From an uncultured bacterium (GTDB taxonomy: Bacteria; Verrucomicrobiota; Lentisphaeria; Victivallales; UBA1829): DNA of 64,000 nucleotides. Made by a program: the position numbers and the translations under genes. The stretch is from assembly GCA_902774245.1 (NCBI GenBank), contig CACYHQ010000008.1, forward strand, positions 1-64,000. The letters are read 5' to 3'. Shown piece after piece: positions 1,383-4,351 of the stretch. The notes below the pieces were generated by a model. That model did no database searches. It was not told the origin of the DNA and saw only the letters and a list, made by a program, of their open reading frames with translations. Within the stretch, counting starts at the first letter, position 1. Every line of letters starts with the position of its first letter.

Positions 1383-1678
1383 TTTGGGGTTTTGGATAAT
1401 ATAACGTCTCTGGCAAAAAAGTCAATGGAAGAAAGGTTTTTTGTCTAGGGTTTCTTTCGGGCAGTCAGCCATGTCTATGCGGAATTTCTTGAAGGCAAGT
1501 ATCGGCACATATTGGCAAGAAGAGGATGCCATGACTCCTTTTTTAACAAAAAGATGCAGGGACCAGTCGTTCTTTGCTTGATTTTTATATGGATAAGGGA
1601 TATATTATTATTTGGAATTGATTTCCGCTCCCTGCGGGATTCTGTTCCAAGCTCTTTACATCGGTTATTTCAGCAAAA

Positions 1679-1820
1679 GACGATGAAAACCGGCCAAGTT
1701 TGATTTAATATCTTTTGCTACTGAGTTTGAAAAACCAGCAAGGGACTATAGTGTCTTTGTATCTTGCTGGGCGTTTTTTCGTCGTCTCAGTAGCAGGTTC
1801 TTGGCCGGACCTTCATCGTC
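1679..1820. repeat. 142-nt nested inverted repeat (four stacked helices), possible structured RNA or bidirectional terminator
   Basis: Four perfect helices are nested in register: GACGATGA 1679-1686 with 1813-1820; CCGGCCAAG 1690-1698 with 1800-1808; GCTACTGAG 1717-1725 with 1786-1794; CCAGCAAG 1735-1742 with 1763-1770. That is 34 paired bases separated by internal loops. The 3' side of the innermost helix runs into GCGTTTTTTC, and the opposite strand into GGTTTTTC, so the core could terminate transcription both ways. Even the unpaired spacers look related when the second arm is reverse-complemented, as if the two arms were diverged inverted copies. Confidence 0.7.
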
Positions 1821-1997
1821 GCGTATGGGGAAGCGTCCGGCTTTTTTTGTGTCCAGACGTTGCCTCGTGCGTAAAGTGTTATCCCTTCCGAGGCCAGAAT
1901 GTCTGTTCGTCCCGTCAATCATCACATGTCATCTTTAGCCGGTAATCTTTTGACCCGGCAGACTACTTGTATCCTCGATCAGCACAGTCTATTTCCT

Positions 1998-2041
1998 TCC
2001 CGGAATGGAGGTCTGACTTCTCATTCCGGGATTTTTGTTTT
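1998..2041 (+). terminator. Rho-independent terminator-like hairpin
   Basis: A perfect 10-bp stem (TCCCGGAATG 1998-2007 with CATTCCGGGA 2022-2031) is followed by ATTTTTGTTTTT. It sits directly before the next gene's ribosome binding site. It may end transcription arriving from the relic region or act as a leader hairpin. Confidence 0.7.
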
Positions 2042-2065: not shown

Positions 2066-4351
2066 ATGAAACAACTAATTGCTCCTATTGCCATAATTGT
2101 TGCCTTGATTGCCTTCTTCGTCATCATTGACCGCAAGGATTTCTATTCCGGCGACAATTTGACAGTTCAAAAAGAAACCGTAACGGAAAAGAAGCCGGCC
2201 ACAGTGACAACGCTCAAGCCTGTCGAACAGACAACGGGGGAGCCTATCGAAACGAAGCCTGTAGTCGATACAAAGCCGACAGAGAAGGACACTGTGGCGG
2301 AGGAGCCCTCTGAAACAAAGCCTGCGGCCGAGACGAAGCCTGTAGAAATGAAATCTGTTACCGAGACGAAGCCGATCAAGACGAAACTTGTCACGGAAGA
2401 AACGCTCGCTCCTGCCGCCATCCCCGTTGTCACAGCGGAAGAGGCAGAAAAACTGAATGAAGCGGCCAAGGAATTTGCTTTGGCAGAAAAAGAAAGAAGA
2501 GAGCCATTTTTCAGGCTTTATCAAGACAGTAATATCGAAACTCTTTGTTTCGAGGGGACGATCCGGGCGACCTCAACGATTCCAGACCCGACAAAAAATG
2601 ATTATGACAACTGTTTATATGCTCTTTTTATTGAGTTAGATTCTCTTCTGTCCGACGTTCCAGGTGAAACAAAAATACCCTATGAAGTGATTGTTAATAC
2701 TCCAATCATGAAAGAAAAGAAAATCCTTCAGGATAACAAGTTCTTTCCCGGTGACAAGGTGTGGTGTACTTGTGCCGAGTATGATGCTATGCCACAGAAT
2801 ATTCAGGAAATTCAGTTGTCCGATGATATCCAATCTTATGAACATCAGCAATATTATTCAATGACAATCCATAAAATTACCGCATTCCAAAAAGGAGGAA
2901 ATCGCAATTTTGCAAAGAGAGAAATAACAGTTCTTCCACTTCAAATCTTACCCAAAGAAGAAAAAGCTGTAATTGCACGCAAAAAACGTATTCAGAGTGA
3001 AATACAACGAATTGAGGAAGAATTGAAAAAGCATGGCGGCACATTTGAATCCTGGAAGGAAGAGTATAAGCCTATCATTGAAAAATACAACAAACTTTCT
3101 TCAGAAGAATATAAAGTTTGGATTAACGATTCGTATTTTGCATGCGGAAAGGGTGAACCATCCTACAAAACTAAAGAATTCATTGAAGGACTGCAACCAT
3201 ATAAAAAATATCTTGAAGATAATAATATTGATTTCATTATGGTTCGTATTCCAAATAAATGGGAATTTTCTCGATGTGTTCTTACCTCTGACGTTTTTCA
3301 GGAAAACCCAGCCTGGGTTGAACACTACTACGAATGCTTAAAGAATGATATTGAAATTGTAGATCCTATGCCTGAAATGTGGGAACATAGATTTGATTTT
3401 CCATTGTTCTATTACTATAACGTTCAATCGGAAACACATCCGTTTGAGGGACAAGCTTTCATGTCTGCAAAAGTGCTTTCCAATGTTCTAAAAAGATACT
3501 CATATTCTACTTCCGAGACACCACTCGAATTAGAGGATTGCGCGTTAAGTGCTAACATCCCACGAAACTTTTGGCCTGAAGGAAACAGCCATTTTAATCC
3601 AGTGGAACATGTTAGGGTGAAGCGTGTTATTCAAGACGGAAAGACAATTGGCGGACTTACAGTCAATACTGGATCACCATTTCTTTTTCTTAGTCATTCT
3701 TTCTTTGCGCACCCAAACCGAGAACAAGGCGCATCTGTTCCCGCATATACCGCTTACTTTATAAAACATATTCCTGACTGGTTCTATCAAGATGGAATAA
3801 GTACCCCCATGATTAGAAACCTCGTTTCTGATTCACAGGCACTCTCTAACAGGAAAGTCGTAATTATGGTGGGACACCCAAGTTTTTGGAGCAGTTCTTT
3901 CCCCTCATTTCCTAAATATATTACGGATAAGGCAAAATGTATTTCTTTGGAGAATTCTTTGGATTTCCAATCTTCTGACATAACAAATCTTGACAACGGT
4001 TCCTTTCTCTTTGAAAAAGACGAGGATAACGTAACAAGTTTTACCCAGAACACGGAAATGGAAAAACCCAACAAATACTTTGATGTTCAATTGTCGGTTC
4101 CAAGTGTTAAAGATAAAGGGACATGCATGCTGAGAGTCAACTTTGGAACAAATTCGTATATCAAAACGGTTATTTCAGACACTGAAACAAAAACTAGAAT
4201 TGATACAACAACATTATCTCCTGGCAAAAATCTGCATACTGATTTTTATATTCCAATTGCGGATGAAGCTCGAAAAATATCGATTCGGTTTGCTCCGTCA
4301 TATCCGGACAAGCAATTTTCCATCAAAAACATTGAGCTCTGGTATTACTAA
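2066..4351 (+). CDS. Membrane-anchored AlgX/AlgJ-like (SGNH-type) protein of the O-acetylation locus
   Basis: The 761-residue protein has an N-terminal anchor (about residues 4-22). A Lys/Pro/Thr/Glu-rich spacer with repeated ETKPV-like units follows (about 35-115), then a large outer domain. The outer domain resembles AlgX/AlgJ acetyltransferases: ETHPFEG near residue 456 lies where those have D-x-H-W, and FLFLSHSFF near 540-548 lies where they have GDSF. The Ser and His of the triad are kept, but Asp is replaced by Glu and the Gly by Ser. Activity is therefore uncertain and the fold assignment is an inference. The gene is clearly AT-richer than its neighbours, which points to recent transfer. 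It starts after GAGGA with 10 nt to the ATG. Its stop overlaps the ATG of a broken MBOAT copy (TAATG), so it probably once preceded a full MBOAT gene. Confidence 0.6.
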   Translation: MKQLIAPIAIIVALIAFFVIIDRKDFYSGDNLTVQKETVTEKKPATVTTLKPVEQTTGEPIETKPVVDTKPTEKDTVAEEPSETKPAAETKPVEMKSVTETKPIKTKLVTEETLAPAAIPVVTAEEAEKLNEAAKEFALAEKERREPFFRLYQDSNIETLCFEGTIRATSTIPDPTKNDYDNCLYALFIELDSLLSDVPGETKIPYEVIVNTPIMKEKKILQDNKFFPGDKVWCTCAEYDAMPQNIQEIQLSDDIQSYEHQQYYSMTIHKITAFQKGGNRNFAKREITVLPLQILPKEEKAVIARKKRIQSEIQRIEEELKKHGGTFESWKEEYKPIIEKYNKLSSEEYKVWINDSYFACGKGEPSYKTKEFIEGLQPYKKYLEDNNIDFIMVRIPNKWEFSRCVLTSDVFQENPAWVEHYYECLKNDIEIVDPMPEMWEHRFDFPLFYYYNVQSETHPFEGQAFMSAKVLSNVLKRYSYSTSETPLELEDCALSANIPRNFWPEGNSHFNPVEHVRVKRVIQDGKTIGGLTVNTGSPFLFLSHSFFAHPNREQGASVPAYTAYFIKHIPDWFYQDGISTPMIRNLVSDSQALSNRKVVIMVGHPSFWSSSFPSFPKYITDKAKCISLENSLDFQSSDITNLDNGSFLFEKDEDNVTSFTQNTEMEKPNKYFDVQLSVPSVKDKGTCMLRVNFGTNSYIKTVISDTETKTRIDTTTLSPGKNLHTDFYIPIADEARKISIRFAPSYPDKQFSIKNIELWYY

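Follow-up and report, generated by a model that had tools for sequence, protein, structure and literature searches.

A multicopy rod-shaped RNA of the Victivallales and its candidate role as a transcription-attenuating leader

What is the nested inverted repeat that lies at positions 1679-1820 of a 64,000-nt stretch (the window) of a contig from an uncultured Victivallales bacterium? A preliminary description had reported four helices there and offered three readings, namely a structured non-coding RNA, a bidirectional terminator or the core of a small non-autonomous element. We found the nested arms in place with all four helices: P1 (1679-1687:1812-1820, 9 bp), P2 (1690-1698:1800-1808, 9 bp), P3 (1716-1725:1786-1795, 10 bp) and the apical hairpin P4 (1735-1742:1763-1770, 8 bp). 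These and all features below are given on the forward (+) strand. The 181-nt region 1660-1840 folds at -71.7 kcal/mol, compared with -46.4 kcal/mol (s.d. 4.3) for dinucleotide shuffles (z = -5.9), and 0 of 200 shuffles were as good. The helices do occupy the 142 nt originally delimited, but the conserved unit is longer: it opens with a promoter-like site (1578-1606) and closes with a U-run (1842-1848).

Pairing is retained across diverged copies. In an alignment of 81 copies (A2), made from sequence alone without structure, P1-P4 were paired in 87% of cells, with 549 compensatory cells versus 188 when partners were shuffled and 84-155 when helices were slid. In a model-fitted set, 90% of cells were paired and compensatory cells numbered 427 versus 131 in shuffles. 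On the unfitted alignment, every one of the eight pairs in 1680-1687:1812-1819 of P1 has changed on both sides (95% of cells paired); both-sided changes affect 4 of 9 pairs in P2 (98.4% paired), 10 of 10 in P3 and 3 of 8 in P4 (84% paired). P3 is paired in only 73% of unfitted cells, since its region is misaligned between genera, and in 81% of cells of the model-fitted alignment. Such compensatory changes in independent copies, followed with a covariance model, strongly support the reading as a structured non-coding RNA and identify the inverted repeat as one copy of a multicopy RNA family. The spacers between helices, whose loose alignment had been taken as a possible sign of duplicated arms, turn out to be covarying or internal-loop parts of an RNA conserved in about 128 copies.

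We then have to ask how far this family extends. The source genome holds three diverged copies, the other two being 77% and 74% identical to the window copy; same-genus genomes carry between one and eight, and other genera show weaker matches. Searching a named genome collection with a DNA pattern based on the conserved 3′ part gave 79 loci; nearly all belong to MAGs labelled Lentisphaeria, Lentisphaerae or Victivallales, most of them of rumen or gut origin, with a few under unspecific or divergent names. Matches to covariance model R1 were found in 49 of 80 near relatives, in 57 of 149 genomes from the class and in 30 of 145 from the phylum; one of these 30 (G268) lies outside the class and has a weak E-value. 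By these searches, the family is confined to Lentisphaeria (Victivallales), where it spans several families. Rfam returned only two tRNAs for the whole window at the gathering threshold, nothing for window positions 1500-2000 at E-values up to 5 and nothing for 15 related loci, and the open-access literature yielded no Lentisphaerae or Victivallis RNA of such a kind. The family is thus apparently undescribed and uncatalogued.

The alignments also show conservation of an alternative fold, composed of helices A, H and B, that is mutually exclusive with the full P1-P4 rod. The two folds share strands at 1716-1719, 1766-1770, 1800 and 1807-1808: A draws on the 5′ end of P3, while H and B use strands of P2 and P4, respectively. 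Helix A (1672-1679:1712-1719, 8 pairs) has 1716-1719 in common with P3. Among 43 same-genus copies, 95.9% of its cells are paired and 3 of its 8 pairs show both-sided changes, including exchanges of G-C to U-A and G-C to A-U; across genera, its longest match averages 7.2 nt versus 6.1 nt with swapped partners. The segment common to A and P3 fits both partners in 61 of 110 copies, a number that exceeds the maximum of 54 in 2,000 shuffles.

The 3′ part of this second fold has the form of a terminator. Stem B (1766-1780:1827-1841) shares 1766-1770 with the 3′ arm of P4 (1763-1770); its own 3′ arm, GGGGAAGCGUCCGGC, pairs with 1766-1780 over its entire length and is followed by seven U (1842-1848). 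The stem, 12-15 bp long and directly abutting the U-run, is kept in nearly all copies (92.8% of cells paired), and in 107 of 110 copies the 9 nt that follow it include at least 5 T. In isolation, 1764-1842 folds as the B hairpin at -34.4 kcal/mol (z = -4.0). By composition and predicted folding, B with its U-run is a textbook intrinsic terminator. A terminator had been suggested for this locus before, as a bidirectional one made by the nested helices; the one present is one-directional and arises from a different pairing, B/H (1766-1841 plus U7), that competes with those helices. A smaller terminator that would pair the tail CGUCCGG with CCGGAC (1805-1810) was rejected, as in other copies the 1805-1810 segment changes with P2 and not with the tail.

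Within the loop of B lies hairpin H (1796-1811, GGYUC-UUGGNN-GRRCC), which competes with P2, whose 3′ arm (1800-1808) doubles as closing pairs and loop of H. In the 117 copies where H was recognised, each of its five pairs is present in 116-117; the third pair is U-A in 88, C-G in 28 and U-G in 1, whereas the shuffled maximum was 101 of 117. B and H together are paired in 94.6% of cells versus 91.6% (s.d. 0.3) in shuffles, with 48 both-sided cells versus 18 (reached in 0 of 500 shuffles); in slid versions, pairing drops to 37-61% of cells. Within the genus, A, B and H together show 18 both-sided cells versus 2.8 in shuffles (0 of 500) and 0-3 in slid versions. Relatedness among copies is ignored by the shuffles but not by the slid controls, which agree for both B+H and A+B+H. 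The covariation signal of B itself is modest because much of the stem is nearly invariant and tolerates G-U. U-G pairs occur often in both H and B (at one pair of H, in 98 of 117 copies); on the opposite strand these would become A-C mismatches, so they mark the + strand as the sense strand.

Features on either side of the fold suggest where a transcript would begin and what it would lead into. A consensus scan found a sigma-70-like promoter, TTGATT-17-TATATT, at 1578-1606 (9 of 12 positions); two sites were found in that scan versus 1.0 expected from shuffles. At the corresponding position, copies from the same genus retain TTGATTTTT-N17-TGTAAATTGT, and it is on the same-genus alignment that the promoter assignment rests, a family-wide scan having given scattered positions outside the genus. 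Transcription would then probably start near 1612, where a 5′ hairpin, P0 (1612-1650, -19.7 kcal/mol, z = -5.5), begins; same-genus copies have a hairpin-forming sequence at the same place, and low energy there extends across the family. Beyond the U-run, lineage-specific conserved blocks run into the ribosome-binding region. In the window, a tentatively coding small ORF (1899-2069, 56 aa, MSVRPVNHHMSSLAGN...) follows a GAGG and overlaps the next start codon by ATGA; other same-genus copies also precede similar small-ORF starts, several of which abut the next gene. A different short frame, MRMITATTAFKMPLYG..., stands behind copies in other genera. Leader-peptide attenuation ahead of the terminator was considered and set aside, as the frame MKTGQV* is not kept and other copies read ATG TAA.

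The presumed regulated gene in the window (2066-4351) encodes a 761-aa protein for which a Pfam search gave no match; likely relatives with the same N-terminal start stand behind copies at loci L025, L041 and L043. Elsewhere, the genes behind the copies are unrelated and include Sel1 and zinc-ribbon proteins, AIDA-type adhesins, glycosyltransferases, lipoproteins, a BspA-type leucine-rich protein, regulators and many proteins without a family. No common pathway emerged from 84 downstream proteins, which spread over 67 Pfam families of at most 7 members each. Orientation is far more regular than content: with one ORF caller applied mechanically to both sides, the next ORF lies on the leader strand at 102 of 112 loci, whereas the upstream ORF is near-random (60:41, or 60 of 101). 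The prophage relic beside the window copy, which had been part of the original description, is a coincidental neighbour, other copies adjoining unrelated genes; a truncated and frame-shifted phage tape-measure gene (326-1382; PhageMin_Tail, E = 1.6e-42) lies there and is unrelated to the leader RNA.

Taken together, we consider it probable, with moderate confidence, that the RNA (about 1612-1848) is a cis-acting leader that attenuates transcription of the gene behind it. It has the general features of such leaders: a same-strand 5′ position, an intrinsic terminator and a conserved fold that excludes the terminator. The P1-P4 rod would act as antiterminator and B/H/U7 as terminator. Energies were compared in 103 copies, all selected for a complete 7-bp core of B: in 100 of them the rod had the lowest energy, and each of the 103 could instead form a terminator stem of 15-22 bp at a mean cost of 15.6 kcal/mol. 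With the rod about 16 kcal/mol more stable on average, any switch must therefore be kinetic or factor-driven. Growing-chain folds of the window copy formed A first, then P4, after which P3 replaced A and P2 and P1 followed, and the sequence from A to P1 was complete before the 3′ arm of B existed.

This folding order suggests read-through by default and termination upon hindered exchange. P1-P3 would be complete shortly before the polymerase releases the 3′ arm of B; by default, then, the rod would form and transcription would read through into the gene. A signal that holds helix A, or blocks the A/P4/P2 strand exchange, would leave the rod incomplete; B and H would then form and transcription would stop at 1842-1848. 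Candidate signals are a small ligand, a second messenger or an RNA-binding protein. The copies precede accessory and surface genes that are unrelated to one another, which favours a global physiological cue over a metabolite of one pathway. The attenuation proposal is least certain about which of the two states the signal would stabilise, and A could coexist with P1/P2 as a pseudoknot rather than exchange with P3. More specifically, the RNA may represent a novel class of riboswitch that would probably sense a second messenger or another signal of global reach. Its rod-shaped antiterminator, trading strands with the terminator fold at three points, would then govern a dispersed regulon, made up of accessory and surface genes, in gut Victivallales. 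We put this forward tentatively and regard it as rather doubtful in full.

Other arrangements would use the same parts differently. Three observations would suit independent small RNAs acting in trans, each with its own promoter, the B/H/U7 terminator and the rod as final structure, while the genes behind have separate promoters: a compact unit, about 240 nt long, is bounded by the promoter-like site and the strong terminator, the rod finally reached is very stable, and several paralogues per genome resemble sibling sRNA families. Against that reading, the next ORF shows a same-strand bias and the upstream ORF is near-random; the conserved blocks beyond the terminator run into ribosome-binding sites, and a terminator stem that competes with the rod would be needless for an sRNA 3′ end. 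We therefore hold it unlikely. The pairing of A bears on another alternative, a static pseudoknotted leader in which A forms beside P1/P2 and which, like HK022 put or Bacillus EAR, would bind a protein or RNA polymerase and act through antitermination or stability. Covariation backs A, its arms could pair alongside P1/P2 (13 nt linker), and an element common to unrelated genes is reminiscent of processive antitermination sites. Yet B/U7 directly adjoins the structure and draws on P4 sequence, as in attenuators, the segment common to A and P3 matches both partners, and an adjoining terminator of their own is not known for put-type elements; a static leader is accordingly improbable in our assessment.

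Copy number raises the further question of whether the unit moves. One to eight copies per genome within the genus would suit a small non-autonomous mobile element or repeat, as would the rod of the window copy, which is 95% identical to that of L108, before a different gene in a sister genome, with flanks only about 50% identical. Against mobility, copies have diverged to about 70% with pairing retained by compensatory change, and they keep a fixed orientation relative to the next gene (102 on its strand, 10 opposite). The copies within the source genome are 74-77% identical and so are not near-identical dispersed repeats; the family is conserved across several families, and searches of viral contigs, plasmids and phages found no copies. 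A recent survey treated multicopy motifs of inconsistent orientation as mobile candidates (PMC11109978), whereas the orientation of the Victivallales RNA is consistent. The mobile-core reading of the preliminary description thus becomes very improbable. The promoter and upstream part of the window leader (compared over 1560-1850) is closest to L103, which stands before a likely relative of the 761-aa gene. Because rod and promoter/upstream part have different closest copies, paralogous leaders appear to be mosaic and to exchange segments by recombination or gene conversion.

We compared the attenuating leader proposed here with known RNAs. Like 6S RNA, it is a single long irregular hairpin of about 180-200 nt; 6S RNA is usually present in one or two copies. 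The Victivallales RNA differs in being multicopy (up to 8), in standing nearly always before genes and in having its own overlapping terminator, and the window gave no Rfam 6S match. Cyclic-dinucleotide riboswitches are leaders with mutually exclusive terminator and antiterminator that are repeated before diverse genes (PMC9262584). GEMM (c-di-GMP-I) riboswitches resemble the present RNA in their 5′ leader position, exclusive terminator and antiterminator, and occurrence at multiple loci before envelope, adhesion and other genes; they differ in having a three-stem junction instead of rod-like nested helices, and the Victivallales RNA is restricted to Lentisphaeria. In the window and at the 15 related loci, neither GEMM/c-di-GMP-I nor any other Rfam family reached its gathering threshold beyond the two tRNAs. 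HK022 put RNA (PMC9378689) and EAR are likewise structured leaders acting on transcription of unrelated following genes, but the present RNA has a much longer rod and a terminator that abuts and overlaps the structure. The Acido-Lenti-1 motif (RF01687), a candidate structured RNA listed for Acidobacteria and Lentisphaerae and marked as not cis-regulatory in the 2010 paper (PMC2864571), is in Rfam, yet did not match the Victivallales RNA.

The RNA family has strong comparative support and comes from a little-studied, mostly uncultured bacterial order. It would join genes of unknown function (adhesin-like, zinc-ribbon/Sel1 and lipoprotein genes) as one putative regulon, and so offers a direct route to asking what signal gut Victivallales sense. 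With both alternative folds supported, the switch hypothesis is testable by single compensatory mutations.

Within the small ORF of the window, a strong inverted repeat at 1998-2040 (TCCCGGAATG/CATTCCGGGA, -21.6 kcal/mol), followed by TTTTTGTTTTT, forms a second terminator-like site immediately 5′ of the 761-aa gene. Ten copies (L190, L200, L209, L212, L218, L221, L225, L228, L229 and L231) make up a distinct subfamily, characterised by TTTTACGGCAAAT..., a longer apical hairpin and a conserved block, TTCACTGAAGAC...TTTGTCCTTTGAATTT, after the terminator.
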